The translations under genes and the position numbers were made by a program. The notes under the pieces are model-generated. The model had not been told where the DNA came from. It saw only the letters and a program-made list of their open reading frames with translations, and ran no database searches. Of a stretch of DNA of 31,732 nucleotides, positions 416-28,155 are shown piece by piece (position 1 is the first letter of the stretch; each line of letters opens with the position of its first letter). The stretch comes from a virus, in IMG/VR virus record IMGVR_UViG_3300031227_010601, positions 1-31,732 of that record; one strand, given 5' to 3'.

Positions 416-489
416 TGGATACGTCGGGACTTGAACCCAATCTTCCGCATTGCAAGTGCGGTGCTCTAGCCTATTTGAGCTAACGACCC
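416..489 (-). tRNA. tRNA-Ala (TGC), irregular acceptor stem
   Basis: A perfect anticodon stem CCGCA/TGCGG encloses CTTGCAA (TGC). D arm GCTC/GAGC and T loop TTCAAGT are normal. The acceptor GGGTCGT pairs with ACG-T-ATCC only if one T is bulged. A second, regular Ala (TGC) gene lies at 2102-2175, so this copy may be redundant and drifting. Confidence 0.75.
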
Positions 490-492
490 AAT

Positions 493-637
493 AAAGTTGA
501 GAAAGGTTGATGTGGGTATGTTTACTGTGCTAACATTACACTATACCGCTATTTTAATATCTGGTCGCGGTAGAAGGAATCTAACCTCCTCTAGTCGTTT
601 ATGATACGAAGTAACCCATTGTCGTTACTACAACTTT
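493..637 (-). ncRNA. Pseudoknotted RNA element, copy 1
   Basis: A closing stem pairs 493-499 (AAAGTTG) with 631-637 (CAACTTT). Just inside is a hairpin GAAGTAAC/GTTACTAC (plus-strand reading, one A-A mismatch) at 609-629. Its loop, CCC-A-TTGTC (615-623), can pair with GATGT-GGG at 509-516 through GGG:CCC plus wobble pairs. The middle contains a TACCGC/GCGGTA helix. It fills the gap between tRNA-Asn and tRNA-Ala. Minus-strand orientation is inferred from the flanking tRNAs and from copy 4. Confidence 0.6.
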
Positions 638-638
638 G

Positions 639-790
639 CTCTTGAGGTAGGATTCGAACCTACGACCTGCGGATTAGTGGATAAGGAGAGTTTCGCTCTC
701 TTTATTTTCCTAAAACCTTATCCGGGGATTGTTAACAACCACCTCTGGTTGTGATACAGTCCGATGCTCTACCAACTGAGCTACTCAAGA
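639..790 (-). tRNA. tRNA-Asn (GTT) interrupted by a 79-nt insert in the anticodon loop
   Basis: Outer parts are a normal tRNA: acceptor TCTTGAG/CTCAAGA, D arm GCTC/GAGC, T arm GTAGG TTCGAAT CCTAC. The anticodon arm reads CGGACTGT, then 79 nt (677-755), then TAATCCG. Removing the insert exactly restores the standard loop CTGTTAA with anticodon GTT, and the junction is unique. The insert contains a perfect 8-bp helix GGATAAGG/CCTTATCC, a GAGAG/CTCTC hairpin and an ACAACC/GGTTGT hairpin. It is far too small for a known self-splicing intron and has no terminal G. Whether a mature tRNA is produced is unknown. Confidence 0.75.
677..755 (-). other. 79-nt structured insert in the tRNA-Asn anticodon loop
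   Basis: The insert lies between U35 and U36 of the tRNA. On the minus strand it begins ATCACAACC and ends TTATCCAC. It folds into two helical domains and contains GTTAACAATCC, an echo of the normal Asn anticodon arm, so a partial duplication is one possible origin. No protein-coding capacity or group I core motif is visible. Confidence 0.65.
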
Positions 791-810
791 ATATGTTCAT
801 AAAATTTTAG

Positions 811-886
811 CGTGCCCGGAGGGACTCGAACCCCCATCGTGCGGCTTAACAGGCCGAAGTTTGATCCTATTTAGTACTACGGACAC
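811..886 (-). tRNA. tRNA-Asn (GTT), intact
   Basis: Acceptor GTGTCCG/CGGGCAC with discriminator G; anticodon loop CTGTTAA in a CGGC/GCCG stem; T arm GGGGG TTCGAGT CCCTC. The D arm pairs poorly. This uninterrupted gene lies right beside the interrupted tRNA-Asn and may make the latter dispensable. Confidence 0.82.
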
Positions 887-890
887 ATAA

Positions 891-1006
891 TAAATCTGAG
901 AAAAGTTAAAAGAGCATTTGGTTTGGTTCCCCGATGGCTTCCGCCTGGTGGAGAAATTGATAAAAAAATCAAAATACGAAGTAACTCTTTCATTACTACA
1001 GATTTA
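891..1006 (-). ncRNA. Pseudoknotted RNA element, copy 2
   Basis: The closing stem pairs 891-898 (TAAATCTG) with 999-1006 (CAGATTTA). The hairpin GAAGTAA/TTACTAC at 978-998 carries loop bases CTCTTT (985-990) that pair with AAAGAG (909-914), giving a pseudoknot. A TTGAT/ATCAA hairpin and a GGC-TTCC-GCC hairpin lie in between. It sits five bases upstream of tRNA-Asn in the direction of transcription. Its first closing strand overlaps the stop codon of the neighbouring homing endonuclease. Confidence 0.65.
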
Positions 1007-1693
1007 TGTTTTTATTTCTTTCTCTATTTCTTTTATATCTTTATCAAACCAAACTTGCAATTTATATCCAGCATTGCCAACAGCTTTCCATTTTAAGCTA
1101 TCATTTGGTCTCTCAAATCCCTTAGTTTCAATGTAGTAAAAACTTTCATTTTCAAAAACTTTGAAATCTAATAAGTATGTATGTTCTTTCTTATCTTTTC
1201 CAATATAACTAATTTTGTCATTAGTATATTCCCAATCTTTAATTTTCCCTTGTGCTTTCCATTTATCAAGAATAAAACAAGTTCTAAGTTCATAAGTTCC
1301 TTGGACTCTTATATCTTTATAATTAAGCCACTTAGCTGTTCCTCCGGCAACAAAATTATTACCATTAGCATACGATTTCTTATTTATTTCTGACCATTGT
1401 TCTTTAGATAATTTATCATGAACTGATTTCCATCCTCCTCTTAATTTACTAGCGCAGGATATAGAACAACATGTTGTATCTCTTTTAGCGTATGATACTT
1501 TAAATTCATTTCCACATTCAGGGCATATTTTTTTAACTTTATGTCTATTTAATGATAATTTTTTACTAACTTTTTCGTTTATTTCTTTCCTCTTAGCTTT
1601 TGTACTAAATCCTCTTGAACATTTAACAGAACAAAATCTTCCCGAACCATATTTTCCATCATGTTCGTTACCACAATTTTCACATTCTTTCAT
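1004..1693 (-). CDS. Homing endonuclease, zinc-finger plus PD-(D/E)XK-like nuclease
   Basis: This 229-aa protein has two Cys4-type zinc modules in the N-terminal half (CENC...CSVKC and CPEC...CSISC). Its C-terminal half has the layout of a PD-(D/E)XK/VSR-like nuclease: YELRTCFILDKW, then LLDFKVFENE and YYIETKG as candidate D...E-x-K active-site residues. The first 46 residues are nearly identical to the endonuclease at 3505-4317, while the catalytic halves differ, so the DNA-binding head has been shuffled. It is a free-standing mobile gene within the tRNA cluster. The stop codon lies in the closing stem of RNA element copy 2. A TATATAAAATAAA motif precedes the start by a few bases. Confidence 0.7.
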   Translation of the reverse strand: MKECENCGNEHDGKYGSGRFCSVKCSRGFSTKAKRKEINEKVSKKLSLNRHKVKKICPECGNEFKVSYAKRDTTCCSISCASKLRGGWKSVHDKLSKEQWSEINKKSYANGNNFVAGGTAKWLNYKDIRVQGTYELRTCFILDKWKAQGKIKDWEYTNDKISYIGKDKKEHTYLLDFKVFENESFYYIETKGFERPNDSLKWKAVGNAGYKLQVWFDKDIKEIEKEIKT

Positions 1694-1698
1694 ATGTG

Positions 1699-1716
1699 TT
1701 TATTTTATATATTCAC
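1699..1716 (-). promoter_or_regulatory. TATATAAAATAAA promoter-like motif of homing endonuclease gene
   Basis: On the minus strand GTGAATATATAAAATAAA lies only about six bases before the ATG. The same motif precedes every homing endonuclease gene here and resembles the T4 late promoter core TATAAATA. The closeness to the start implies a very short leader or a leaderless mRNA. Confidence 0.55.
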
Positions 1717-1757
1717 TTAGAAATTTGAACTTTAAACTTTCATAGTGAACTAAAATG

Positions 1758-1832
1758 CGGTATCGACGGGATTCGAACCCGCAAATCGCGATCCGTGACA
1801 GGGATGCACATGCGCCAATATGCTGCGACACC
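1758..1832 (-). tRNA. tRNA-Asp (GTC)
   Basis: Acceptor GGTGTCG/CGATACC, D arm GCAT/ATGT, anticodon stem ATCC/GGAT around CTGTCAC (GTC), T arm GCGGG TTCGAAT CCCGT. A second Asp gene lies at 2402-2473. Confidence 0.85.
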
Positions 1833-1838
1833 ATTTTG

Positions 1839-1921
1839 TCGGGAAGGTGGGATTCGAACCCACGTTTTCAACATACCTACCTACGGCTATACACTTTATC
1901 AGAGTGCCCCGGTATATCCCG
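1839..1921 (-). tRNA. Aberrant tRNA-like gene (possible Ile GAT)
   Basis: The T arm (GTGGG TTCGAAT CCCAC) and acceptor 3' strand (CTTCCCG) are clear, facing CGGGATA with two mismatches. The best anticodon arm, GCACT CTGATAA AGTGT, would read GAT (Ile). It starts only 14 bases from the 5' end, so there is no room for a D arm. A long, partly paired segment follows it, as in a class II variable arm. It is either a D-armless oddity or a rearranged, non-functional gene. Confidence 0.5.
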
Positions 1922-1931
1922 TTAATTTTTG

Positions 1932-2002
1932 TACCCCCGAATGGAATCGAACCATCGTCACCAGATTAAGAGTCTGGGGCATATCCCCTTTGCTACGAAG
2001 GC
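1932..2002 (-). tRNA. tRNA-Lys (CTT)
   Basis: Acceptor GCCTTCG/CGGGGGT is rich in G-T pairs. Anticodon stem CCAGA/TCTGG around CTCTTAA gives CTT. T loop TTCGATT. Together with two Lys (TTT) genes it covers both lysine codons. Confidence 0.87.
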
Positions 2003-2101
2003 ATGGTGAGATTTTTTGATCTAATTCTTTGGCGATCATGGAATTACTAAACCTCAATATAAACAAAATCTCTTAAACCTTCCATTTTATACTGAACTTC
2101 G

Positions 2102-2175
2102 TGGAGCTGAAGAGACTCGAACTCTCGACATCCTGAATGCAAATCAGGTGCTCTAGCCAACTGAGCTACAGCCCC
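2102..2175 (-). tRNA. tRNA-Ala (TGC)
   Basis: Acceptor GGGGCTG/CAGCTCC, D arm GCTC/GAGC, anticodon stem CCTGA/TCAGG around TTTGCAT (TGC), T arm GAGAG TTCGAGT CTCTT. A regular second copy of the Ala tRNA at 416-489. Confidence 0.9.
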
Positions 2176-2179
2176 AAAC

Positions 2180-2276
2180 ATTGTCTTCAACATACCCGGC
2201 CGAATACGCTTTCCCATAGTGCACCTAGAGAGATCCTCGCCTGCGTCCTCACTGGGCCGGCAAAAACCTTGACAAT
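2180..2276 (-). ncRNA. Compact structured RNA between tRNA-Trp and tRNA-Ala
   Basis: Two nested inverted repeats are visible: ATTGTC (2180-2185) with GACAAT (2271-2276), and CCGGCC (2196-2201) with GGCCGG (2255-2260), plus an inner CCC..AGTG/CACTGGG helix. It fills the whole spacer between two tRNA genes and is far more GC-rich than other spacers. It resembles no RNA family I can name. The strand is inferred from the flanking tRNAs. Confidence 0.5.
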
Positions 2277-2286
2277 TTTTTATTAG

Positions 2287-2357
2287 CAGGCCATGAAGGA
2301 TTCGAACCCTCGACGTTGGTTTTGGAGACCAAAATGTTACCACTACACCAATGACCT
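2287..2357 (-). tRNA. tRNA-Trp (CCA)
   Basis: Acceptor AGGTCAT/ATGGCCT is fully paired. Anticodon stem TTGGT/ACCAA surrounds CTCCAAA (CCA). T arm GAGGG TTCGAAT CCTTC. Discriminator G. Confidence 0.9.
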
Positions 2358-2401
2358 ATAGAAGCAAATCAGAATACTCTAAAGTAATCCTCAATGCCCA
2401 G

Positions 2402-2473
2402 CGGTCCATGTGGGATTCGAACCCCTCCTTCGCGCAGACAACGCGTTGTACTACTCTTTATACTACACGGACC
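2402..2473 (-). tRNA. tRNA-Asp (GTC), second copy, weak T stem
   Basis: Acceptor GGTCCGT/ATGGACC is perfect and the anticodon stem CGCG/CGCG surrounds TTGTCTG (GTC). The T stem has only three good pairs and the D arm is irregular, so this copy may be less functional than 1758-1832. It follows RNA element copy 3 directly. Confidence 0.72.
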
Positions 2474-2476
2474 AAA

Positions 2477-2590
2477 TAAACTGAGAAAGTTCGGAAGAGA
2501 TTAACAGACGGTTTCGACACCGTGACTTTTGTGTTGTAAACAAATGCTGGACACCCAGCTCGAAGTAGCTCATTCCATTACTACAGTTTA
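2477..2590 (-). ncRNA. Pseudoknotted RNA element, copy 3
   Basis: Closing stem TAAACTG (2477-2483) with CAGTTTA (2584-2590). The hairpin GAAGTAG/TTACTAC at 2562-2583 has a loop with CTC-A-TTCC (2569-2576) that pairs with GGAA-GAG (2493-2499), leaving one A bulged. The middle has three clear hairpins: ACGGT/ACCGT, TTTGT/ACAAA and GCTGG/CCAGC. It lies three bases upstream of tRNA-Asp in transcription order. Confidence 0.68.
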
Positions 2591-2591
2591 G

Positions 2592-2652
2592 TTAAGATAG
2601 AAGGTTCGGGCCCTTCCAAGTGATGCATCACCATGTTCCATATTTATCTTAA
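2592..2652. other. Stem-loop overlapping the end of the GIY-YIG gene
   Basis: TTAAGATA (2592-2599) pairs perfectly with TATCTTAA (2645-2652) and encloses a GAAGG/CCTTC hairpin and the palindrome GTGATGCATCAC. The outer stem overlaps the stop codon of the endonuclease gene. It has no clear T run, so it may be an RNA-processing or 3'-end structure rather than a terminator. Confidence 0.4.
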
Positions 2653-3264
2653 TTTTCGACCTAATCTCCATCCTTCTGGAATTAAGTCATTTTTGTGTAT
2701 TTTTTTACTTTCTTTATCATTTGTTATCCAACTAGTTCCAAATTGAGAATTTTTAATTCCTGTTCTATCAGCATTTCTCATTTTTTCTTTAGTTTCTTTT
2801 GAATGTTTCTTATTTGTGAATCTAGAAGAATTCATTTTACCTTCTTGCCATAATTTTTTATATCGAATTCTCTGTTCTTCTATTTTTTTTTCTCTCCAAT
2901 CTTCATATAATAGACTGTGCCATAAAAGTTCATTTCTTTTCTTAGCTCCTTTTGTACTTTGTTCTTTAGTAAATCCTCCTCCACCACCTGGTTGAAGATT
3001 CATGCAATCTTTTTTTGCTAATTCATTTAAATTTACAATTTCAGATTCTCTATTTTTTAATTCTTTACGATTCTTACAATATTCTAATATTTCTCTAATA
3101 TGGTTTTCTCTTCCATACTTATTTATAGAATATCTTAATCGTTTTCCACTTCCTAAATAATCATCTTCTATATTATGAGTAGAATGCATCCCGTAATAAT
3201 ATTTTTTATTTACTTTACAAGTTGTTTTGTAAATAAAGTGGTACTTTTTTTGTTTCCTTGGCAT
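2644..3264 (-). CDS. GIY-YIG homing endonuclease
   Basis: A 206-aa protein starting with a GIY-YIG domain: FIYKTTCKVNKKYYYGMHST matches the two tyrosine strands (first ~30 residues), followed by YLGSGKRLRYSINKYG and the conserved Glu region (ESEIVNLNE). A basic middle and C-terminal NUMOD-like DNA-binding repeats follow (KHSKETKEKMRNADRTGIKNSQFG). It is a free-standing mobile gene between tRNA-Gly and RNA element copy 3, with the shared TATATAAAATAAA motif upstream. The target is presumably nearby tRNA or RNA-element DNA, which is inference. Confidence 0.8.
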   Translation of the reverse strand: MPRKQKKYHFIYKTTCKVNKKYYYGMHSTHNIEDDYLGSGKRLRYSINKYGRENHIREILEYCKNRKELKNRESEIVNLNELAKKDCMNLQPGGGGGFTKEQSTKGAKKRNELLWHSLLYEDWREKKIEEQRIRYKKLWQEGKMNSSRFTNKKHSKETKEKMRNADRTGIKNSQFGTSWITNDKESKKIHKNDLIPEGWRLGRKLR

Positions 3265-3271
3265 AATATAC

Positions 3272-3289
3272 TTTATTTTATATATTCAC
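3272..3289 (-). promoter_or_regulatory. TATATAAAATAAA promoter-like motif
   Basis: GTGAATATATAAAATAAA on the minus strand, seven bases before the GIY-YIG gene's ATG; same motif as upstream of the other homing genes. Confidence 0.55.
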
Positions 3290-3313
3290 ACTCAAGGAAC
3301 AAAAATGACCATG

Positions 3314-3390
3314 TGGTGCGGGTAAAAGGATTCGAACCCTCACCTCGAGATTGGAAATCTCATATGCTAGCCGTTAAACACCACACCCGC
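3314..3390 (-). tRNA. tRNA-Gly (TCC)
   Basis: Acceptor GCGGGTG/TACCCGC with encoded ACCA, anticodon stem TGAGA/TCTCG around TTTCCAA (TCC), T arm GAGGG TTCGAAT CCTTT. Confidence 0.9.
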
Positions 3391-3504
3391 ATTGTCTACA
3401 CCGCATGCCATTCAGTATAGATCTTGATTTTTGCCTTTACTAGCATGATGTAAAGAGAATCCCGAAAGAAATCATAAACTTTCTGTTGATAGTTTTCGTA
3501 AAAA

Positions 3505-4317
3505 CTAACAAAAATGTGTTTCTTTATTATTTAATATTAACTTGAAATTATATCCTTTTTCTTTATATGCTTTTACTCTATCTTTCATATTTTGTAAATC
3601 TAATGTATAACTAGATTTAACTTCTGACAAGGTATTAGTTTCTGGCAAATAAAAATCCACTATTGCTATTCTTTGTTTATTTTCTATCGTATCAAAATAT
3701 TTTATTCTTTTTGATTCTACATCATATTTAATTTGGTATGAATCTAAAATTTTTGCATAATTAAATTCATAAGAACTTCTTAAATAAACTTTTTTATTTT
3801 CCCAAGTATTATACCATCCGCGTTTACAATTCCCATAAGAAAAATTATCTTGTGGAGTTTGCCTTCCTAAATCAATGCTATTAATATTTGCTTCTGAATT
3901 ATTTTTTAATGATATCCCATTATTTTGAAAAAAGAAATATAATGTATTAAGTTGGATTTTATATTTTTCTTTTATCATTAAAGAAGTTTGATTATTAATA
4001 AAATATTCTTTTTTTAAAAAATCTAAAGCTTTTTTATTTGCAACTTTTAAATTTTCATCTAATATATTCAATTTTTTATATAAACTTCTTCTTTGAATTA
4101 ATGGATAGCAATCATCACAAAACTTTCTTCTTTTATTTAAAATTTTACCACATGAACTACATTTTGTGATTTTGTTCTTATTTAATGTTTTGCTTACCTT
4201 TTCATTTATTTCTTTTCTTTTAGCTTTAGTGCTAAATCCTTTAGAACATTTAACTGAACAAAATCTACCACTTCCATAAGAACCATTATGTTCATTACCA
4301 CAATTTTCACATTTCAT
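3505..4317 (-). CDS. Homing endonuclease, zinc-finger plus PD-(D/E)XK-like nuclease
   Basis: A 270-aa relative of the 1004-1693 protein. The N-terminal zinc module (CENC...CSVKC) and basic linker of about 46 residues are nearly identical, and a second CSSC...CDDC zinc ribbon follows. The C-terminal third has a VSR/PD-(D/E)XK layout: RSSYEFNYAKILD, then IAIVDFYLPE and SEVKSSY, giving candidate E, D and E-x-K residues. The middle includes a helix-turn-helix-like stretch. The gene ends in TAG, showing amber is used as a stop here. An AGTTTT/AAAACT hairpin follows the stop. The upstream motif TATATAAAATAAA is present. Confidence 0.68.
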   Translation of the reverse strand: MKCENCGNEHNGSYGSGRFCSVKCSKGFSTKAKRKEINEKVSKTLNKNKITKCSSCGKILNKRRKFCDDCYPLIQRRSLYKKLNILDENLKVANKKALDFLKKEYFINNQTSLMIKEKYKIQLNTLYFFFQNNGISLKNNSEANINSIDLGRQTPQDNFSYGNCKRGWYNTWENKKVYLRSSYEFNYAKILDSYQIKYDVESKRIKYFDTIENKQRIAIVDFYLPETNTLSEVKSSYTLDLQNMKDRVKAYKEKGYNFKLILNNKETHFC

Positions 4318-4322
4318 AAGTG

Positions 4323-4340
4323 TTTATTTTATATATTCAC
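4323..4340 (-). promoter_or_regulatory. TATATAAAATAAA promoter-like motif
   Basis: GTGAATATATAAAATAAA on the minus strand, five bases before the endonuclease ATG. It is the same 18-mer as upstream of the genes at 1004-1693 and 2644-3264. Confidence 0.55.
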
Positions 4341-4386
4341 CTATGAATTTGAACTAATGCAAATAGATTAAAAATTTTAATTTCTG

Positions 4387-4471
4387 TACCCCCAGTGAGA
4401 CTCGAACTCACGATCTATCGATTAAAAGTCGATGGCTTTAAGGTTTCCCAATCCAACTAAGCTATGGGGGC
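4387..4471 (-). tRNA. tRNA-Lys (TTT) with enlarged D loop
   Basis: Acceptor GCCCCCA/TGGGGGT, anticodon stem ATCGA/TCGAT around CTTTTAA (TTT), T arm GTGAG TTCGAGT CTCAC. D-stem GCTT/AAGC encloses about 20 nt instead of 8-11, making the gene 85 nt long. It is a second Lys (TTT) gene beside the normal one at 1-75. Confidence 0.8.
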
Positions 4472-4497
4472 AAAAATTACAATACGTCAAAGATCGA

Positions 4498-4522
4498 TGA
4501 TTTTTTACTGAAATCTAACATT
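4498..4522. repeat. 25-bp direct repeat, copy A
   Basis: TGATTTTTTACTGAAATCTA and the five following bases recur exactly at 4570-4594. The two copies flank a truncated tRNA, suggesting a recombination event. Confidence 0.85.
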
Positions 4523-4562
4523 TAGAGGACCAACGAGGACTCGAACCTCATTTACTTACCAT
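4523..4562 (-). pseudogene. tRNA remnant (3' half only)
   Basis: On the minus strand a T arm GAGG TTCGAGT CCTC and the following acceptor strand TTGGTCC are present, but no matching acceptor 5' strand, D arm or anticodon arm exists. The place of the 5' half is taken by the second copy of a 25-bp repeat. This looks like a tRNA gene deleted by recombination. Its amino acid cannot be deduced. Confidence 0.6.
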
Positions 4563-4569
4563 TCGTCAA

Positions 4570-4594
4570 TGATTTTTTACTGAAATCTAACATT
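4570..4594. repeat. 25-bp direct repeat, copy B
   Basis: Exact second copy of 4498-4522; it abuts the truncated tRNA at the point where its 5' half should begin. Confidence 0.85.
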
Positions 4595-4601
4595 ATAAAC
4601 T

Positions 4602-4634
4602 AAAAAAGGCGGAAAGTTGTTAAACCATCCGCCT
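4602..4634 (-). terminator. Rho-independent terminator
   Basis: On the minus strand AGGCGGA (n14) TCCGCCT is followed by a run of T. It lies just after the 35-aa gene and before the tRNA cluster. Confidence 0.75.
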
Positions 4635-4657
4635 ATTAAATATTGTTGTTACAGTAA

Positions 4658-4765
4658 TTATATTCCTGTACCTCCATATCTTTCGGCGGACATTTTTCTT
4701 CCCTTCACGTTGCCTTTATCATCGGCCACGTTCCAAATATTCATATCTATATTTTTTCTTGTCAT
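4658..4765 (-). CDS. Small hypothetical protein (35 aa)
   Basis: A short frame encodes a 35-residue hydrophilic, basic peptide beginning MTRKNIDMNIWNVADDKG and ending AERYGGTGI. The codons look native (Trp, Gly and acidic/basic mix) and the frame sits alone between an AT-rich leader with ATATATAATAAAATA and a good terminator, which supports a real gene. Function unknown. Confidence 0.5.
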   Translation of the reverse strand: MTRKNIDMNIWNVADDKGNVKGRKMSAERYGGTGI

Positions 4766-4882
4766 CACTGAAAGTTTTTAACTTTTATTTGTTATTGTTA
4801 TCTATTTTATTATATATCATGCAAAAAGTTTCACATTTTATTACTTTTTGCATTAAAAAAATCCTGTAGGTTGTCAACGACC

Positions 4883-5074
4883 TTACTCGTTGTCATCAGC
4901 CCCTTTTTCGCCAGGATCTTTAATTTCCTCTTTATATTTTTTATGGTAATGATTAGCCATTACACCTGAATAATTACCATCTTCATCAACATCTTCATCC
5001 CAATGTGATAATGGACCAATTTGTTCGTCCATCTCATCCTCATCATCTTTCCAACTTCCTCCAAATAATGCCAT
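4883..5074 (-). CDS. Acidic hypothetical protein (63 aa)
   Basis: A 63-aa very acidic protein (for example WKDDEDEMDEQIGPLSHWDED and a DDNE tail) with no signal peptide or membrane segment. It has its own promoter of the GTTATATTA-type just upstream and is a monocistronic early-type gene. Strong acidity is common in phage DNA-mimic or regulatory proteins, but nothing more specific can be said. Confidence 0.65.
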   Translation of the reverse strand: MALFGGSWKDDEDEMDEQIGPLSHWDEDVDEDGNYSGVMANHYHKKYKEEIKDPGEKGADDNE

Positions 5075-5092
5075 GTTTTAATTTGTTATTGT

Positions 5093-5123
5093 TAATATAA
5101 TACTAATAATTGGGATAAAAAAA
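5093..5123 (-). promoter_or_regulatory. GTTATATTA-family promoter (variant ATTATATTA)
   Basis: Minus strand: a T run, then TATCCC, ten bases, and GTATTATATTA. The spacing from the TATCCC block to TATATTA equals that of the other family members. It drives the 63-aa acidic gene. Confidence 0.6.
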
Positions 5124-5171
5124 TTTATTTACAATTATTTTCAATTTATTTTTCAAGTATTACTCTACCAA

Positions 5172-5717
5172 TTACTTATATTTTCTTCTAGTAATCTTAG
5201 ATACTTTACCTGTATCATCATCAGTAAAATCTTCTTCCCAAGATTCTATTTCTTTCTTTTTATTTCCAGTTGGTTTATAGGAATCTTGTTTATAATTTTG
5301 ATTACCCCATCCAGCATTTCTTCCATGAAAATCAGTTTCATCATCACTCATTACATCATCTCTTAAAATCCATCTTCCTTCAGAATTCTTTTTAATATAC
5401 TTCATTAGGTGTCCAAAATTCCTGGCATCACGTGAAGGAGTTTTAAATGCTCCTGACCAATAACCTCTATGTGGATTACCACCTCCACTTCTATATTTAT
5501 GTTCTTGTCCACTAAGTTCATCAGTAAATTTATGTGTCTTAGATGGTGTATTGTCAGCATCATATGTTCCTTCTCCATATGAATATTCATATGCGAATCT
5601 TATAATATCTGTATACCCTCTTCCTTCCGGACCTGCATCTCCAATGAATTGAAGAATATCATCAGTTTTTTTACCACGAGAAGAAACTCTTTCTTCATTA
5701 ACGGTTCTTGCTCTCAT
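5172..5717 (-). CDS. Hypothetical protein, possible winged-helix fold (181 aa)
   Basis: A soluble 181-aa protein with no recognised catalytic motif. Residues ~18-42 (DDILQFIGDAGPEGRGYTDI and on) and ~98-122 (ARNFGHLMKYIKKNSEGRWIL) look like a helix-turn-helix followed by a wing, as in small phage DNA-binding proteins. The middle is rich in Gly, Ser and His and the C-terminus is highly charged. This fold assignment is a guess from pattern. It lies just downstream of the membrane protein gene at 5739-6212. Confidence 0.6.
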   Translation of the reverse strand: MRARTVNEERVSSRGKKTDDILQFIGDAGPEGRGYTDIIRFAYEYSYGEGTYDADNTPSKTHKFTDELSGQEHKYRSGGGNPHRGYWSGAFKTPSRDARNFGHLMKYIKKNSEGRWILRDDVMSDDETDFHGRNAGWGNQNYKQDSYKPTGNKKKEIESWEEDFTDDDTGKVSKITRRKYK

Positions 5718-5738
5718 ATCTATTTCTTATTTTATTTC

Positions 5739-6212
5739 TTAAAAATATTGTAGTATAAACGCTAAACTAATTGATATAAAGGCTACTACCTCTGCCCACC
5801 ATAACTTGGTTTTTTTATCAAATATCACAATAGGTATCACAATCGCTGCGGCTATTGCAGTTAACCACCACATATCATGCATAAATATAATCGATAACTC
5901 TCCTAGAGCTATTCCTCCTATTGCTGCAATCATATGTACCTTCCTTATGAAATCTTGATGCATTTGGGCCGCTGCTCCAACAAACATAATACCAGCAGCT
6001 GCAAAAAACATTAAACCGTCACCATTAGCTAAAATTGCTGCGGGTAATGCAAATCCCCATAAAGCTAAAGTGAAAACAATATTCCACTTTTTAGGAAGAA
6101 CGTAATAACTTTCCGATATTGATTTCTGAACTCCATACTTAAATCCAATAAACATCGTATATGATATAAATATCACATTCATTAAAATCACTAAAATCTG
6201 TTGATAATCCAT
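5739..6212 (-). CDS. Integral membrane protein (157 aa)
   Basis: Five hydrophobic segments are visible at about residues 4-24, 44-62, 66-82, 92-112 and 114-152, the last long enough for two helices, separated by short loops (QKSISESYYVLPKK and FDKKTKLWW). There are no recognised transporter or enzyme motifs. It lies between the large structured RNA region and a putative DNA-binding protein. Function unknown; a role at the host inner membrane is expected from topology. Confidence 0.7.
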   Translation of the reverse strand: MDYQQILVILMNVIFISYTMFIGFKYGVQKSISESYYVLPKKWNIVFTLALWGFALPAAILANGDGLMFFAAAGIMFVGAAAQMHQDFIRKVHMIAAIGGIALGELSIIFMHDMWWLTAIAAAIVIPIVIFDKKTKLWWAEVVAFISISLAFILQYF

Positions 6213-6226
6213 AGTCTATATTATTT

Positions 6227-6838
6227 AGATTATTTATCTCACAGATTTTTTAATATTTTTAAAAGTAAAATGGTGCAACTGGAAAAAGTTTCCTACCGTG
6301 GCCCGGCAATCTCCAGATACACACCATTTGATTTTCTATAGTGCCTATCTATATACTGAATTCGGACTCATATGTGGAACTACACACTACAACAACCATC
6401 ATGTCCAAACCATTCGTCCAACACCGAACCTACTTCATACCCCAAAGTTGCATGGTGGTCTAGCGATCGCGGAATCGCATAAAGGCTAAAAGAATAAGTT
6501 GGATTTCTTCGCCCCGTTGGTATTTCTTTTACTAATCCCTACCACTAGGAAGATTTTCATTAATTATTATTTTCATTAGTCTGGCACTGATTTCTAATTT
6601 AAGATGATCGTCAACTTATACATCCGCCATTATTGCGGACTCCTTAGCCTATACATTAGAACTCTTAATCTTTGCTTTATCAGCGTGGTTTGCATCTAAG
6701 TGCCTCCCACCTAAAGAGTTCTAGGTTATAAGGAAGTGGTTGATTAGAATAATCAAAACTAATCCCAGTTTCTCAATTCATCGACGCCAAATCCCCCTAT
6801 GATTCGGGTTTAACTTTTCCTCTGAACAATAATAATCT
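6227..6838 (-). ncRNA. Candidate large structured RNA (~610 nt), non-coding region
   Basis: This stretch has no convincing frame on either strand. Its ends are complementary: AGATTATT (6227-6234) with AATAATCT (6831-6838) and CAGA (6242-6245) with TCTG (6821-6824). Inside are a perfect 9-bp helix AGAACTCTT/AAGAGTTCT (6658-6666 with 6714-6722), a 7-bp hairpin TTGATTA-GAA-TAATCAA (6740-6756) and a TCCGC/GCGGA hairpin. Size and phage setting recall large ornate phage RNAs such as GOLLD and ROOL, but I could not match sequence. Strand is inferred from neighbouring genes. Confidence 0.5.
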
Positions 6839-6849
6839 CAAAAAATATT

Positions 6850-7197
6850 TTAAAATACCCCTACTGAAGATGCAACAAACACACCAACAGCAGCCATAAT
6901 TAAGAATATCACTCCAAAAATTATAAGATTTCTCTTTTTAAGATTCTTTGAAGGTTTGTATTTTGTCGGTTCGTAAAATACCGGATCTGTATTTTCTTTA
7001 ACAACTTCAACCTTTTCTTCTGATTCATCGACATGTAAAGGAATTTCCTCTACCGGTGCTTCATTGATCTCAGTAACTGAAGTTTTCCTAACAGTCTTTT
7101 GTTCTCCATTATCGAATAAAATTTTCCAACTTTTTGTAGTTTCACCGTTAATAACTCCAAGAAGTTCATCATAAGCTACTTTGTCACCAATTTTCAT
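6850..7197 (-). CDS. Tail-anchored small membrane protein (115 aa)
   Basis: Residues 1-45 look like a small beta-rich SH3-like domain (MKIGDKVAYDELLGVINGE, then KILFDNGEQKTVRKTSV). An acidic linker follows, and residues ~90-113 form a single C-terminal membrane helix after KKRN. It would expose the beta domain to the cytoplasm, anchored in the inner membrane. It has its own GTTATATTA promoter and precedes the large RNA region. Function unknown. Confidence 0.65.
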   Translation of the reverse strand: MKIGDKVAYDELLGVINGETTKSWKILFDNGEQKTVRKTSVTEINEAPVEEIPLHVDESEEKVEVVKENTDPVFYEPTKYKPSKNLKKRNLIIFGVIFLIMAAVGVFVASSVGVF

Positions 7198-7224
7198 AAT
7201 TATGTTGTTTAAATATTATAGTCT

Positions 7225-7255
7225 TAATATAACAAAAAGTTTTGGGATAAAAAAA
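7225..7255 (-). promoter_or_regulatory. GTTATATTA-family promoter
   Basis: Minus strand: T run, TATCCC, ten bases, TTGTTATATTA. It lies 28 bases before the start of the tail-anchored protein gene. Confidence 0.65.
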
Positions 7256-7280
7256 TTATTTGGCATTTATTTTCAAAAAA

Positions 7281-7559
7281 TTATCTACCCATTTCATTTC
7301 CACGCCAATCTGGTACATCCTCATCACCCATTCCACCTCTTGGTGCGCGGGGTACTTCATCCCAAGTAGATTTTGCTTCTTTTTCTCCTACCATATCAAT
7401 AGTCCAATCTCTCAACTTACCCATGAAATATTGTAAGTCGTCATCACTTAATTTCTTAAATACATTTGATCGTAACCTTTGAATTTCTTCCATGAAAAGT
7501 TCGTCAACCTTTTCATTAAATGTTACTTTTTCATTTAAACTTTCTTTAACTAATTTCAT
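7281..7559 (-). CDS. Hypothetical protein (92 aa)
   Basis: A 92-aa soluble protein, helical in its first 60 residues and followed by a Gly/Pro/Asp-rich tail ending in WRGNEMGR. It begins 14 nt before the upstream gene ends, so the two are probably translationally coupled. No known domain is recognised. Confidence 0.65.
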   Translation of the reverse strand: MKLVKESLNEKVTFNEKVDELFMEEIQRLRSNVFKKLSDDDLQYFMGKLRDWTIDMVGEKEAKSTWDEVPRAPRGGMGDEDVPDWRGNEMGR

Positions 7560-8481
7560 GTTGTGTAATTTTTTTTAAAAATTCATCTATTATTTCTTTT
7601 AATTCTTCCCAATCATCTGTAAATTCTACCTCTCCATATCTAGTACCTACTCTTGTAATCTCTCCATCTTCTACAGTATATGTTATAAGAGAATCTACAT
7701 CTTGGAAATCTAGATTGAAATTAAACCAAAACATTTGTTGGATATTATCATGTGAACCGATTAAATTACACCAAACATCCTCATTTCCAAAACAATATGA
7801 TCTGGACAAAATATTATTTTCATTCGCAGCATCCATTGCTTTAAATGTTTTAATATCAACTAATAGGTTTTTATCATCTTCAAATACTATTTCAGCATCT
7901 TCATCACTAAACTTAGAAAAGAATTGAGAATATTCGTTTTTTGTTATATTTCTAAATGTCAATAATTCATCTTGAATCACATCATATAATTCTTTAGATG
8001 ATTTATATCTTCTTCCATGAGTTCCTAAAAACTTTTTAACATATTCCAATGATTTAGGTACTGCTTTATCATCAGATTTAGCGCTTTTTAATAATTTCCA
8101 AATTTTTTCATCAAACAAATCACTTACTTCTTTTTTAATTCCTGATGTAAATTGATTCTCCCATTGTTTCTCAAAACCATCTTTTATATCATTATCAAAT
8201 TCTTCAAATGAATTAAATGAATCAATATTTCCTAATTTGATTTTTTTATTCTTAGCTCTTAAAAAGAACATGTGAGCATTTTTTAATTTCCAAAACGGAG
8301 TTCCCGAATACATCCATTCTGTAAATTTTCCTGCTAACCCTGGGGTTTTTTCAATTAATTTTCTAAGTTTAACATAATCTGGATCATTTGAGTCCTTTCC
8401 TTTATCAGCCAAAATCTTTTTAGATTGTTGAATGTTTTCGTAAATTCGCGTGAATTCTTTTATTGTGATGAAGTCTTTCAT
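7546..8481 (-). CDS. Hypothetical phage protein (311 aa)
   Basis: A 311-aa soluble protein starting MKDFITIKEFTRIYEN. I chose this ATG because it overlaps the upstream stop as ATGA; an ATG three codons earlier is also possible. The first ~160 residues are helical and charged. The C-terminal part has a SRSYCFGNEDVWCNLIGSHDN stretch followed by beta strands with an acidic end, an arrangement reminiscent of phage proteins with a conserved W-C core. No enzymatic motif is recognised. It forms an operon with 8478-8672 and 7281-7559. Confidence 0.65.
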   Translation of the reverse strand: MKDFITIKEFTRIYENIQQSKKILADKGKDSNDPDYVKLRKLIEKTPGLAGKFTEWMYSGTPFWKLKNAHMFFLRAKNKKIKLGNIDSFNSFEEFDNDIKDGFEKQWENQFTSGIKKEVSDLFDEKIWKLLKSAKSDDKAVPKSLEYVKKFLGTHGRRYKSSKELYDVIQDELLTFRNITKNEYSQFFSKFSDEDAEIVFEDDKNLLVDIKTFKAMDAANENNILSRSYCFGNEDVWCNLIGSHDNIQQMFWFNFNLDFQDVDSLITYTVEDGEITRVGTRYGEVEFTDDWEELKEIIDEFLKKITQHEIS

Positions 8482-8672
8482 TTTATCCATGCATTTTTTA
8501 CTGTTGGATTCTTTTTCACTTTTGCTATATATTGCCAAGGAGCTTCAATACAAGGATATTCTTTTTGATATCCTGACATATATTGTACAACTACAGTATA
8601 TTGTTTTGGTCTAAGATTTCCTTCAAATCCTTCGAAAAAATCTTCCTTTAAGTTTTTATAGAAAAATGACAT
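8478..8672 (-). CDS. Hypothetical protein (64 aa)
   Basis: A 64-aa mixed alpha/beta protein with no membrane segment or known motif. It opens a three-gene operon with ATGA coupling to the next gene. A TATATAAAATAAA motif ends two bases before its ATG, as at the homing genes, though this protein is not a nuclease. Confidence 0.6.
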   Translation of the reverse strand: MSFFYKNLKEDFFEGFEGNLRPKQYTVVVQYMSGYQKEYPCIEAPWQYIAKVKKNPTVKNAWIK

Positions 8673-8674
8673 AT

Positions 8675-8689
8675 TTATTTTATATATCT
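8675..8689 (-). promoter_or_regulatory. TATATAAAATAAA promoter-like motif
   Basis: GATATATAAAATAAA on the minus strand directly before the ATG of the 64-aa gene. It is one of the few such motifs not attached to a homing endonuclease. Confidence 0.5.
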
Positions 8690-8693
8690 AAAT

Positions 8694-8724
8694 AAAAAAG
8701 CCCTACCAAATAAATGATAGAGCT
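8694..8724 (-). terminator. Rho-independent terminator after RNA element copy 4
   Basis: On the minus strand AGCTCTA (n12) TAGGGCT is followed by TTTTT. It lies just downstream of the fourth pseudoknot element in minus-strand orientation and upstream of the next gene. This supports minus-strand transcription of the element as a separate RNA. Confidence 0.7.
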
Positions 8725-8736
8725 TCTTATTTTAAA

Positions 8737-9005
8737 TTTCTGAGATTACTGTATAGCGATCATTTAGTGTTTTGATCACGGAAAGTTTTAATTAAACCAG
8801 ACTTTCCAATACTGTTCTAAGTGTATTACTACCAGCCATCTTAGATTCCTGACCTTTTCTGCCTCCTCCGAAGAGTTACATCATGCCGAGTGCGGATTTT
8901 TAAACCAGTTTAGAGGTTGCCCCTAAACCCATTCATCGTTTGCTGATTGTATAATCAAGGCCGAGGCCTTAGTTTACGAAGTAACGCATATACTTACTAC
9001 AGAAA
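8737..9005 (-). ncRNA. Pseudoknotted RNA element, copy 4 (long form)
   Basis: Closing stem TTTCTG (8737-8742) with CAGAAA (9000-9005). The hairpin GAAGTAAC/TTACTAC at 8979-8999 carries CGC-A-TATAC (8985-8993), which pairs perfectly with GTATA-GCG (8751-8758) leaving the same bulged A as copy 3. The middle is longer (~220 nt) than in the tRNA-cluster copies and includes further inverted repeats. It stands alone between two protein genes with its own terminator, so it is a free-standing RNA rather than a tRNA spacer. No gene lies in this ~420-nt gap. Confidence 0.68.
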
Positions 9006-10375: not shown

Positions 10376-11135
10376 TATATCTATAAAATTTACATTCTAA
10401 TAAATCTATTATTTCTTTTTGTCTTGTTTTATCTTTTTCTATAAGTTCTCCATTCTTATAATGTGCTGCCTCGTCATATTCAATGACTATATTTTTCTCT
10501 TTATCATATGCATCTACAAAATATCCTAATTCTTCAATATGAAATTCTCCACCATTTTTAGCATGTATTAAATTCCAATCTTTTTCTTTAGATAAATTAT
10601 CAAAAAATAAACATGCTTTGTAATTATACCTTGGAGTTATTCCACCATTTTTATCTTTTATATAATTGATGGCAGAAATTCTCATTTTTTTAATAGTTTC
10701 GGGAGTGTTTTTTCTACCTGTGTTTTTTTCAGCAACTATTTTCCAAGGATTTTTCTTTCGAATTTTCTCTTTTACATCTGGCCAAGTAAATGGATTTTCA
10801 TTTTCTTCTCGCCATTTTTCTAATGATTTTTTCGTAGTTTCTGGCATTTGTTTTCCAAAAGCCGGATTTCCCTTTCCTTTTCTATTACAACTTTGACAAA
10901 AATGTTCATTTATATTTTCATCTAAATCACATAAACGCTTTTCTATAAACTTTCCGCAATCATCACATATAACTTCTATTTTCTCTCTTCTATGTGATGA
11001 TGTTTTCAATAATGTCCATTGAATATCAAATTCATCTCCAACCTCTACATCTTTTTCGAGAATTTTTTTATAAAACCATTTATTTCTATAATTTTCAATT
11101 TTAATCCTAAGTGTTTGGTTTCCTTTTATAAACAT
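10341..11135 (-). CDS. Homing endonuclease, zinc finger + NUMOD3 + VSR-like (EDxHD) nuclease
   Basis: A 264-aa protein. A zinc ribbon (CDDCGKF...CQSC) lies near residue 57-84. NUMOD3-like DNA-contact motifs follow (GKGNPAFGK and NTPETIKKMR). The C-terminal nuclease contains GYFVDAYD, IEYDEAAHY and KDKTRQKEIIDLLECKFYR. The E-x-D...H...D..R arrangement matches VSR-like/EDxHD homing nucleases. It lies directly upstream of nadR and overlaps its start codon, a typical free-standing insertion next to a conserved gene. TATATAAAATAAA precedes it. Confidence 0.75.
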   Translation of the reverse strand: MFIKGNQTLRIKIENYRNKWFYKKILEKDVEVGDEFDIQWTLLKTSSHRREKIEVICDDCGKFIEKRLCDLDENINEHFCQSCNRKGKGNPAFGKQMPETTKKSLEKWREENENPFTWPDVKEKIRKKNPWKIVAEKNTGRKNTPETIKKMRISAINYIKDKNGGITPRYNYKACLFFDNLSKEKDWNLIHAKNGGEFHIEELGYFVDAYDKEKNIVIEYDEAAHYKNGELIEKDKTRQKEIIDLLECKFYRYNEQTKEFYQVN

Positions 11136-11138
11136 ATT

Positions 11139-11155
11139 TTTATTTTATATATTCA
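11139..11155 (-). promoter_or_regulatory. TATATAAAATAAA promoter-like motif
   Basis: ATGAATATATAAAATAAA on the minus strand, just before the homing gene's ATG; member of the same motif family. Confidence 0.55.
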
Positions 11156-11208
11156 TAGAATAAAACCACTTTATACCATTTCATAAAAGACATGATACAA
11201 TCCTTTTA

Positions 11209-12085: not shown

Positions 12086-12282
12086 AATGTAATTTTATAA
12101 CAAGATTTCATAATTTTCATTTTTCCTTTTTCGTCATCAACAAGCAAAACTACCCTAGCATTTTTAAAGGGATCCAATGCTCGTGCTATATCAGTGTATT
12201 GAATTTCTTTGAATTTCTTCTCTCTTCCTTCCATAGTTAAATCTCCTAGACCTAACGTTAAAATTCCGTTTGCTTCTCTCAT
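12082..12282 (-). CDS. Hypothetical protein (66 aa)
   Basis: A 66-aa soluble protein, starting MREANGILTLGLGDLTMEGRE, between the TonB-dependent receptor (TAATG overlap) and the macro-domain gene (ATGA overlap). Its tight coupling shows it is translated with them. No known domain. Confidence 0.65.
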   Translation of the reverse strand: MREANGILTLGLGDLTMEGREKKFKEIQYTDIARALDPFKNARVVLLVDDEKGKMKIMKSCYKITL

Positions 12283-14240
12283 TAAAACGAATATTTAAGA
12301 GTTAAAAACCCATTGGTCCCAGCCATTACAAAATAAAGAGGTTCCCCATCATATCCCATCACAGCATTTCCAAGAATTAACTCGTTGGTTAAATTATTTA
12401 AGCTTCCTATTAATTCAAATTTTTTCCATTTGAATCCAGCATAGGTATTTAGTGTAGTTGCAGCAGGAAGAGTATGTTCATTTGAGAAGTCAATATAACT
12501 ATCTCCTCTATATTTAACATTCAAACCTATATTAAACCAATCGCTTAAATTATATTTTATGTCAGTACTAACAATAACATTTGGAGTCATAACAGGTGAA
12601 AATATTTCTCCATCTTCTTTAATTTGATTATATGAAACATTAGCAGCTAATACATACTCGAAACCATTTTGCCATTTATATCTTCCATCAAGTTCTATTC
12701 CACTCCTAAATGATTGATCTACGTTTTGGTGAAGTAAAATTCCATTAGGGCCATATTGTCCATTCAATACAATTTCATTCTTAAAACTCATATAATACGT
12801 ATTCACATTTACTTTAAGAGATTGATCATTGTACCTAAATCCTAATTCATTATCTAGAGCTTGTTCCGGAACAGTTGGATTATACATTTCTGGAATAAAA
12901 TCATCGTTCCCCATAAATAGGTCTGTTCTAGTAGGTTCTCTGTGACTCATTCCAATTCCATAGTAAATATTAGAATACGCTCCGGTCCTTATAGTGACAC
13001 CACCTGACCAATTAATAAAACTATATTTCTGTGTAGGGAAAGGTGTCTGACCATCATAAGAGAACATACTGTAACGGTACTGTACATCCCCATAAATTGA
13101 AAACCTTCCAGATGTAATTTCACCTTTAACATAAGGTGCTACTTCATTTCTATATCCAGTATTTTTATATGCTTCTTCTCCATTATATGAACCAACATGC
13201 TCTCTATAATAAGTATATGCACTAACTCCATAATTTGTATTCAACCAATTTCCAACTTTTAGATTGTAATTTAAATTTGTTCCGAATTGATTAGACCAAA
13301 GTTCAATTCTATTCATTAGATCCCCCCAATTTAAAGAAGGATCAAAATGAGCTATATCTGTATCATACCATCCATGAATTCCGGTATGATAAACTGTAGC
13401 GTGCAATCCAAATCGTTCCCAATGTAATTGGCTATGAATTTGTGAGAAATCATCAGTTTCATTCGGCTTATTAGAATTATATCTCGGATTAGAATTAATT
13501 GAATCTAGTGGTTCTCCTAACCAACCCATTCCATTTCTTTGTTTTCCAACAAAACCATAGAATTTAAAACTCTTTAATTTGGCACCATAAAATGTTGAGT
13601 ATGAATTATTAAACACATTATTTTTATATCCATTGGTATGATTAGATGAAGTGGTTATAAAAAAATTAGGGTACATTATACCACCTGATGAACCTAGCGA
13701 TCCATATGAACCAACACTTCCTTGGGCAAACAATCCAGGTTTATCTGGAAATTTTAATGAATTGAAGTTCATACTTCCACCATAAGAAGATACACCAGAT
13801 TTTGTCATTCCAGCTCCTCTAATAATTTGAATGTTATTGACCGCGCTAAGGAAATTCGGATAATTGTTATAATAAATTCCTTGATCTTCTGGTTCATTCA
13901 TTGGAACACCATTAAATGTAGAATTAATTCGTGTCTGATCAATCCCTCTCATTCTATAATAAATATAGCCATTTCCTAATCCATTATCGGAATGAGTAAC
14001 AATTGATGGTGTTTGACTAAGAAGTATTGCTGGCTCAGAAAATGGTTGCCTGGCTTGAATTACTTCATGATTTAGATTTGTAAAGGAAAATGGTGTTTCT
14101 TTTACAGCGGTGTAGGAACCAGTTACAGTGACTTCATTCACATTAATTGTGTCCTCTGTGATGTTCCCTTTTTCATAAAATGTTTGTGCGAAAACTACAC
14201 TTCCTATAAATAATAGGATTACAATAAATAAATTTTTCAT
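12282..14240 (-). CDS. TonB-dependent outer-membrane receptor
   Basis: This 652-aa protein has a cleavable signal peptide (first ~18 residues, VVFA|Q), a TonB-box-like NVNEVTVTG at ~33-41, and a plug domain to about residue 165 (MRGIDQTRINSTFNGVPMNE, then VNNIQIIRGAGM). A barrel of alternating aromatic strands follows, ending in the C-terminal Phe typical of BAM substrates (FLTLKYSF). It would sit in the host outer membrane and import a ligand with TonB energy. Finding one in a phage is unusual. It overlaps the next gene by one base within an operon next to NAD genes. The ligand is unknown; an NAD precursor is a speculation from context. Confidence 0.88.
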   Translation of the reverse strand: MKNLFIVILLFIGSVVFAQTFYEKGNITEDTINVNEVTVTGSYTAVKETPFSFTNLNHEVIQARQPFSEPAILLSQTPSIVTHSDNGLGNGYIYYRMRGIDQTRINSTFNGVPMNEPEDQGIYYNNYPNFLSAVNNIQIIRGAGMTKSGVSSYGGSMNFNSLKFPDKPGLFAQGSVGSYGSLGSSGGIMYPNFFITTSSNHTNGYKNNVFNNSYSTFYGAKLKSFKFYGFVGKQRNGMGWLGEPLDSINSNPRYNSNKPNETDDFSQIHSQLHWERFGLHATVYHTGIHGWYDTDIAHFDPSLNWGDLMNRIELWSNQFGTNLNYNLKVGNWLNTNYGVSAYTYYREHVGSYNGEEAYKNTGYRNEVAPYVKGEITSGRFSIYGDVQYRYSMFSYDGQTPFPTQKYSFINWSGGVTIRTGAYSNIYYGIGMSHREPTRTDLFMGNDDFIPEMYNPTVPEQALDNELGFRYNDQSLKVNVNTYYMSFKNEIVLNGQYGPNGILLHQNVDQSFRSGIELDGRYKWQNGFEYVLAANVSYNQIKEDGEIFSPVMTPNVIVSTDIKYNLSDWFNIGLNVKYRGDSYIDFSNEHTLPAATTLNTYAGFKWKKFELIGSLNNLTNELILGNAVMGYDGEPLYFVMAGTNGFLTLKYSF

Positions 14241-16202: not shown

Positions 16203-16636
16203 TATAATAATTTTAAATTTCCGGTTATTCTATCAATTTCATCTGGGTACCATGGACCAATGGCAACCGCAGTAATAGTTATCTTTCCTCCAAATTCAGT
16301 TAATCCTTTATCTTCAATTAAAGAACAAGGAATACCTTTCGCTGATGCATTTTGATATGCAGTAATTAATTCAGTTAAAGTACCTTGAACCACAATTTTT
16401 ACAAAAGAATTATTGATCCATTGATATATTGGTTGATCTTCATGCAATATGATTTCTTTATGAAGAGTTTTGTAAATTCCATGTTTGTGTTCGTCCCATT
16501 CTCTTTTTCCATATTCCCCAAAAAATGAATCAAGCAAAACTGCTAATGATGCATGAGCACCTTGAGCAATCATTTTACCTTTCCTCATCTTAGGTTTAGT
16601 GTCGGTTCTGATTATTATGACTTGTTTTGGTTCCAT
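16202..16636 (-). CDS. Peptidyl-tRNA hydrolase, Pth2 family
   Basis: A 144-aa protein with Pth2 landmarks: KMRKGKMIAQGAHASLAVLL (catalytic Lys/His region), a central VKIVVQ strand, GIPCSLIEDKGLTEF and the terminal ITITAVAIGPWYPDEIDRITG. Pth2 releases tRNA from peptidyl-tRNA that has dropped off ribosomes. This is the archaeal/eukaryotic family, found in several large phages. It overlaps pncB by one base (TAATG). A second, different Pth2 gene lies at 28936-29268. Confidence 0.82.
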   Translation of the reverse strand: MEPKQVIIIRTDTKPKMRKGKMIAQGAHASLAVLLDSFFGEYGKREWDEHKHGIYKTLHKEIILHEDQPIYQWINNSFVKIVVQGTLTELITAYQNASAKGIPCSLIEDKGLTEFGGKITITAVAIGPWYPDEIDRITGNLKLL

Positions 16637-17811: not shown

Positions 17812-18155
17812 TATTTTTTGCCTTTTAGTGTCCAATAATCTGCGCCTGACATGTTTGGTCCATCTAAACCATCATCTATTTCTACTTTAATTATCCATCC
17901 GGCATCTTCATATCGCTTTTCTAATTCATTCCTCATTAATTTGCGCCGAACTTCTTTAAGATTCAAATATATATCTTCGCCTGGCATAAATTTAAAAGAA
18001 GCAGTACCTAATTCAATTCTTATAATATCATCGTCAAAAACTCTTAGAATTTTCTCATCGATATATTTTTCAATTTTAGCTATTATTTTTAGCTCTCCAT
18101 CAGACAAAGGATCTGTCTGGATTTTCTCTTTAATTTCTTTATAATTCATCGCCAT
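17811..18155 (-). CDS. Hypothetical protein (114 aa)
   Basis: A 114-aa soluble alpha/beta protein (MAMNYKEIKEKIQTDPLSDG...; later FKFMPGEDIYLNLKEVRRKL). No catalytic motif is recognised. It overlaps its upstream neighbour by 17 nt and pncB by one base, so it is co-translated with the salvage operon. Confidence 0.65.
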   Translation of the reverse strand: MAMNYKEIKEKIQTDPLSDGELKIIAKIEKYIDEKILRVFDDDIIRIELGTASFKFMPGEDIYLNLKEVRRKLMRNELEKRYEDAGWIIKVEIDDGLDGPNMSGADYWTLKGKK

Positions 18156-28138: not shown

Positions 28139-28155
28139 AACCTTTATTTTATTAG

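Follow-up and report, generated by a model that had tools for sequence, protein, structure and literature searches.

Four copies of a pseudoknotted RNA element lie among tRNA genes in the window considered here, the whole 31,732-nucleotide (nt) stretch formed by positions 1-31,732 of the viral record IMGVR_UViG_3300031227_010601. These copies were proposed by a first-pass annotation of the sequence, and all of them are present where it had placed them, complete with the closing stem, both strands of the hairpin and the pairing of a loop with a distant segment that it had described, including GGAA-GAG with CTC-TTCC and GTATA-GCG with CGC-TATAC. Its interpretation as an RNA element stood, but its orientation did not: it had described the plus strand, and transcription proceeds from the minus strand, which encodes the four elements and the neighbouring tRNAs, like all tRNAs here. 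In this orientation, three copies do precede a tRNA by 3-5 nt, as had been claimed, and the fourth is indeed followed by a terminator-like hairpin.

On the transcribed strand, the consensus core reads S1-UAGUAA-PKa-NUACUUCG-(cargo)-PKb-..UUUCU-S1′, that is, in order: S1, UAGUAA, PKa, N, UACUUCG, the cargo, PKb, ~5 nt, UUUCU, and S1′. S1 is the stem closing the whole unit, and the small hairpin S2 is formed by AGUA and UACU; its loop is the pseudoknot (PK) strand PKa, which pairs with PKb, located just 5′ of UUUCU. The core amounts to ~55-60 nt. Four matches to the left motif, TGTAGTAAN{4,16}TACTTCG, lie in the window, all on the minus strand, against none in 100 dinucleotide shuffles. The features are as follows (a slash marks a border between cargo and clamp or between exons):

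493-637, minus strand: element 1, whole; clamp with permuted tRNA-Met(CAU) cargo
631-637, minus strand: element 1, S1 5′ strand AAAGTTG, partner of 493-499
607-630, minus strand: element 1, left core TAGTAA-CGACAATGGGT-TACTTCG; hairpin S2 with PKa in its loop
562-609, minus strand: element 1, exon 2, the tRNA 3′ part (anticodon arm TCGT-ATCATAA-ACGAC, T arm, acceptor 3′ strand, CCA)
551-561, minus strand: element 1, linker of 11 nt from the encoded CCA to the tRNA 5′ end
525-550, minus strand: element 1, exon 1, the tRNA 5′ part (acceptor 5′ strand, D arm, first nt of the anticodon stem)
500-524, minus strand: element 1, right core; predicted 5′ boundary /UA, A-rich stretch, PKb, ..CCTTTCT
493-499, minus strand: element 1, S1 3′ strand CAACTTT
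890-1007, minus strand: element 2; same core, S1 of 9 bp, PKa TGAAAGAGT with GCTCTTTTA
within 890-1007, minus strand: element 2 cargo, assigned by eye; permuted acceptor/T-arm top half, TTTCTCC-ACCA, hairpin linker GGCGGAAGCC, GGGGAAC
2477-2590, minus strand: element 3; same core, S1 of 7 bp
within 2477-2590, minus strand: element 3 cargo, assigned by eye; D-like, anticodon-like and T-like hairpins, no acceptor stem
8737-9005, minus strand: element 4; same core, S1 of 6 bp, PK GTATATGCG with CGCTATAC, cargo of ~210 nt of structured RNA
8699-8726, minus strand: hairpin and T run 3′ of element 4, intrinsic-terminator-like
417-489, minus strand: tRNA-Ala(UGC), 3 nt downstream of element 1
639-790, minus strand: tRNA-Asn(GUU), intron-bearing, ending 1-2 nt before element 1 starts
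811-886, minus strand: tRNA, 3-4 nt downstream of element 2
2403-2472, minus strand: tRNA, 4 nt downstream of element 3

Recurrence and covarying fold of the clamp

Relatives of the element were collected by pattern scans of IMG/VR, followed by a structural scan demanding the left motif, S1 and the pseudoknot. Since the patterns use a fixed left motif, the actual diversity is larger; the contigs are mostly fragments. The structural scan of the fetched viral loci gave 131 calls, of which 114 are distinct once false and near-identical ones are dropped (a few of these 114 have uncertain cargo limits, since a partner further downstream may have been picked), and the same scan of reversed sequences gave none. 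Chance or simple repeats as the origin of the elements are ruled out by the zero counts in the shuffled and reversed controls.

The element, a module of large phages that lies between tRNA genes, is widespread in phage contigs. Its left motif is confined to one strand in all 39 records searched whole, and 110 of the 114 elements are found in tRNA-bearing loci, in which every tRNA is on the strand of the element (1492 versus 0, counted per element). Forty-four of the 114 follow a tRNA at a distance of up to 20 nt (mostly 0-2 nt), and 46 precede one at a distance of up to 20 nt (mostly 3-5 nt). In GenBank, an element is present at position 369039 of the uncultured huge phage LR745206.1 (634,780 bp), between tRNA-Gly and tRNA-Ala; the Lak phages, LR756502, phage PAU, Flavobacterium phage immuto, Klebsiella phage Muenster and Pseudomonas phage pf16 gave no motif match. 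A scan of bacterial genomes returned the left motif in 46 contigs, many by chance, with a few real elements (L208, L221, and L243), and these may belong to phage contigs inside metagenome-assembled genomes.

The covariation claimed for the pseudoknot is upheld in these fresh homologues, in which each helix was tested in a set picked via the other one in order to avoid circularity. The pseudoknot scored 311 against a maximum of 286 in permutations, and S1 averaged 4.46 bp against a maximum of 2.98; in both cases, none of 2000 permutations reached the observed value. A fixed-register test, made on the 72 elements whose loop has 10 nt, gave 217/288 for helix a (z = 5.6) and 147/216 for helix b (z = 7.8; 66-122 in slid registers). 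The positions of S1 show TA, AT, CG and GC pairs, as seen in a set for which S1 was one selection criterion, and about 20 near-invariant nucleotides adjoin the borders of the cargo. Comparison of the sequences thus establishes the predicted clamp fold, with covarying S1 and pseudoknot. The covarying pseudoknot of the first-pass annotation was therefore correct; its picture of a free-standing non-coding RNA was incomplete, as conservation falls on a two-sided clamp that encloses a variable cargo.

Permuted tRNAs and other cargo

The interior is no mere spacer: that of element 1 is a whole permuted tRNA. In this element and about 30 relatives, the cargo is a circularly permuted tRNA in which the 3′ half with its CCA stands upstream, followed by a linker at the acceptor end and the 5′ half. 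The cargo of element 1 runs from TCGT-ATCATAA-ACGAC through the T arm, TACCGCG-ACCA, the 11-nt linker, AGCGGTA and the D arm to ...GCACAG. ARAGORN detects no tRNA in the genomic, unjoined order, but once the ends are joined at the predicted exon 1-exon 2 junction, ...TTAGCACAG/TCGTATCATAAACGAC..., it returns a complete cloverleaf, a 74-nt tRNA-Met(CAU) with 5/5 pairs in the anticodon stem. When the cargo is treated as circular, ARAGORN calls a tRNA in many elements that have no linear call, and in none of 1000 shuffled controls. The annotation had allowed that a pseudo-tRNA might explain the copies, which is half true: element 1 holds tRNA sequence, but as a permuted gene with a standard cloverleaf once joined, and the clamp proper is not a tRNA.

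The anticodons of the permuted tRNAs include GCA, GUU, UCC, UGA, CAU, and CCU. When the best anticodon stem was sought with both borders left free, exon1/UA was recovered in 8 of 8 junctions with a single best solution and is allowed by most tied ones. At the other end, the border of the cargo ranges from UACU/UCG through UACUUCGAAA/; a single universal 3′ border, ACTT/CG, suits the commonest type, but others need a border up to 6 nt later. Other tRNAs are broken in the variable loop (e.g., L127, L245, L246, L263, L266, L269, and L278-12754). At sequence level, then, the permuted order, the tRNA restored at the junction and the /UA border are established. The huge phage LR745206.1 carries a permuted tRNA-Cys(GCA) as cargo, with a pseudoknot of 9-10 bp. 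In L257 (37 tRNAs) and L278 (38 tRNAs), a permuted tRNA-Gly(UCC) is present, and no ordinary tRNA-Gly(UCC) was called in the array parts seen. A scan for a linear, non-permuted version of the intron gave no convincing case, the match in L127 being two adjacent elements.

Permuted tRNA genes have been described before, 34 of them in six algae and one archaeon, with bulge-helix-bulge (BHB) junctions (2014 review, PMC3978253). The phage genes resemble those of algae and Thermofilum pendens in the order of the halves, the cloverleaf restored by joining, the linker from CCA to the 5′ end, the use of anticodon-stem and other junction sites, and a circular intermediate, which is here only predicted (Soma, 2014; PMC3978253). 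They differ in what surrounds the halves: the algal and archaeal genes have BHB junctions ascribed to the tRNA-splicing endonuclease, whereas the phage ones have the covarying pseudoknotted clamp, and a strict BHB helix (4-bp central) was found in 0 of 19 junctions, relaxed forms not having been searched exhaustively.

Permuted forms of group I introns also exist elsewhere. Permuted intron-exon (PIE) group I introns share with the phage elements the split halves around permuted exons and the expectation of an exon circle; the phage core, in contrast, has only ~55-60 nt, no recognizable P3-P9 scaffold, and no group I match in Rfam, either in the window or in the loci. Of the group I border marks, -1U was found in 0 of 19 junctions (in the /UA register), omega-G in 1 of 19 and both together in none; in tied junctions, a one-base shift yields -1U, not omega-G. 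An origin of the elements by decay of group I or BHB-type introns, or as artefacts of assembly, is extremely improbable: BHB-permuted tRNAs and permuted group I forms do provide precedents, but the strict BHB helix, the pair of group I border marks and an Rfam group I match are absent, and a single design is seen again in dozens of contigs as well as in a GenBank genome.

The claim that the element belongs to no known RNA family agrees with Rfam release 15 at the thresholds used: no family matches the elements in the whole window at gathering thresholds or in the loci bearing relatives at E ≤ 0.1 or 0.5, and only sub-threshold, chance-level rows cover copy 4 at E ≤ 10. No Rfam ribozyme model (HDV-like/theta, twister, hammerhead, and others) matches the elements. 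Theta (HDV-like) ribozymes are small structured RNAs beside phage tRNAs, whose carrier phages are enriched in an RNA ligase family (PMC10879173); the clamp shares this location, but encloses a cargo. In the literature searched, which excluded most subscription journals and preprints, so that prior art may exist, no description of the module was found.

The remaining cargo is varied; apart from the tRNAs supported by ARAGORN, its classes were assigned by inspection. In L256, L263+4752, and L278-13172, the tRNA is in native order and takes its 5′ G from UUCG. Acceptor-less tRNA bodies (window element 3, L145-1187, and L151-246) and acceptor/T-arm top halves (window element 2, L090-9224, and L144) were recognized by eye. 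In L278-12455 (minus strand), the acceptor side of a tRNA-Cys body continues into the GAAA-loop hairpin ACGGC-GAAA-GCCGT, and this RNA could therefore not carry a CCA; a role as a decoy is possible. Some long cargo (L161 at 10980-11200, L131, L130, and L280) resembles 23S rRNA around H69-H71, the first 22-23 nt in L161 being identical to E. coli 23S rRNA (H69/H70). The cargo of element 4 gave no match in Rfam at E < 1 and no informative one at the DNA level; it has AAAGGTCAGGAA.CTAAG..GGCTG in common with L090-2757, with weaker sharing with L015. A second long cargo family was noticed in L052, L090, L195, and L262, with GGCCGTAATTCCCGAAGGTGCGGTG in L052 and L090 and a GAGAGAAAACTC hairpin by the right border in L195 and L090.

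Proposed cutting and joining of the cargo

From these features, we infer a cutting and joining of the cargo, a directing or catalysing role of the clamp, and a fate for the circle. With a probability of about 0.6, a compact split-intron-like clamp would direct the joining of the cargo ends into a circle or a tRNA. S1 and the loop-to-tail pseudoknot would pair the two clamp halves, with S2 beside them, and hold the cargo ends side by side; since tRNAs often nearly abut the elements, processing of the neighbouring genes would free the unit with its ends almost flush. The cargo would be cut at both borders, at exon1/UA on the 5′ side and in or just after UACUUCG on the 3′ side, and its ends joined into an RNA circle. 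That the two borders are joined is suggested by the exact restoration of the stems. Where the cargo is a full permuted tRNA, a normal tRNA would result once RNase P and 3′ processing had opened the circle at the acceptor linker; with other cargo, the final product may be the circle.

A tRNA could also be used in two pieces, without ligation, if tRNA enzymes took out the linker only and the nicked halves stayed paired, the clamp replacing part of the anticodon stem. Permuted transfer-messenger RNA (tmRNA) is a precedent, being a two-piece molecule whose halves are held by base pairing (PMC11915505), and the anticodon loop lies in exon 2 alone, as do 3/5 of the stem pairs in the common type. This explanation is improbable: clamp and flanking RNA would remain on the anticodon stem, at the place that has to be accommodated by the decoding centre; the junctions, with their recurrent /UA border, rebuild the stem with single-nucleotide precision; and acceptor-less or minimal cargo would gain nothing. 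Permuted tmRNA shares with the phage genes the permuted order, an occurrence in bacteria and, as predicted here, maturation by tRNA enzymes, but it stays in two pieces and has no such clamp described (PMC11915505); ARAGORN and Rfam gave no tmRNA match on the window elements.

Several observations weigh against clamp-directed joining. LR745206.1 has an ordinary tRNA-Cys(GCA) elsewhere, and the permuted gene is thus not the sole supplier of that isotype; several junctions have tied solutions with a shared T, and those of L131, L141+2793, and L208 do not yield /UA; and the position of the 3′ border with respect to the core varies by as much as 6 nt, an unexpected feature in a rigid active site. 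Minimal elements hold only ~12-35 nt of cargo, the acceptor-less and capped (L278-12455) cargo cannot become a translating tRNA, and the long cargo, above 180 nt, has no known product. T4-type RNA ligases in many records leave room, besides, for ligation by proteins.

Part of this would suit a structured separator or decoy in tRNA arrays, in which the clamp protects or spaces transcripts, or offers tRNA- or rRNA-like bait to RNases directed against those RNAs, permuted tRNAs being one kind of bait that need not be translated. The minimal elements, the acceptor-less bodies with many anticodons, the tRNA body under a GAAA-loop cap and the cargo opening with 23S H69/H70 all fit it. We consider this role unlikely, although compatible with circle formation, as the full permuted tRNAs retain features beyond the needs of bait: an end that carries CCA or is ready for it, the acceptor, both the D and the T arm, and exact junctions.

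If the clamp does direct the joining of its cargo, the question of what catalyses the reaction follows. It is tenable, though still tentative, that the clamp is the smallest known self-splicing natural permuted intron, whose ~55-60 nt core would cut both borders and ligate the cargo into a circle; large phages would then use it for permuted tRNAs and other circular RNAs, such as acceptor-less tRNA bodies and the 23S H69-H71-like fragment. Self-catalysis is weakly suggested by the ~20 near-invariant border nucleotides together with the lack of a ligase match in several long records: RtcB and the two T4-type RNA ligase families are absent from records of 405, 181, 180, and 175 kb, which may be incomplete. 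Alternatively, the clamp would be only a recognition structure, the cuts at the borders being made by a host or phage RNase and the cargo sealed by an RNA ligase, T4-type or other. The T4-type families do occur in 14 and 8 of 46 records, a 3′ border unfixed relative to the core agrees with such circles, and maturation of the permuted tRNAs of algae and archaea is ascribed to protein enzymes (PMC3978253). RtcB, however, is present in just 1 of 46 records, the long records without any of the three families speak against a universal phage ligase as the partner, and the border-flanking core is conserved beyond the needs of a simple binding site. Circles made by proteins are possible but not probable, and self-splicing is slightly favoured over them.

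Other features of the window and significance

In the tRNA-Asn(GUU) at 639-790 (minus strand), the anticodon loop is split by ~78 nt, CGGACTGT/.../TAATCCG, with an 8-bp hairpin inside; this gene was detected with Rfam and overlooked by ARAGORN. About 550 nt of intergenic sequence at 6270-6840, without a long open reading frame, looks like structured non-coding RNA. A tRNA with a CUA anticodon, amber-suppressor-like, lies at 28155-28228 (minus strand), distant from the main array. The contig also codes for a TonB-dependent receptor, a nicotinate phosphoribosyltransferase, and an NAD synthase (12282-14240, 16636-17835, and 23254-24141).

BHB splicing is not known from bacteria. Permuted tRNA genes were previously reported only from a few algae and one archaeon, where they depend on the BHB (2014 review, PMC3978253). 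Permutation of tRNAs at the anticodon stem, the variable loop and other sites implies an unrecognized RNA joining activity in bacterial cells, and, if confirmed, this would add a new route to RNA circles or to tRNA splicing in bacteria. Because the module conceals tRNA genes from standard finders, the tRNA repertoires of phages are undercounted. The clamp may also prove to be a very small tool for making RNA circles.

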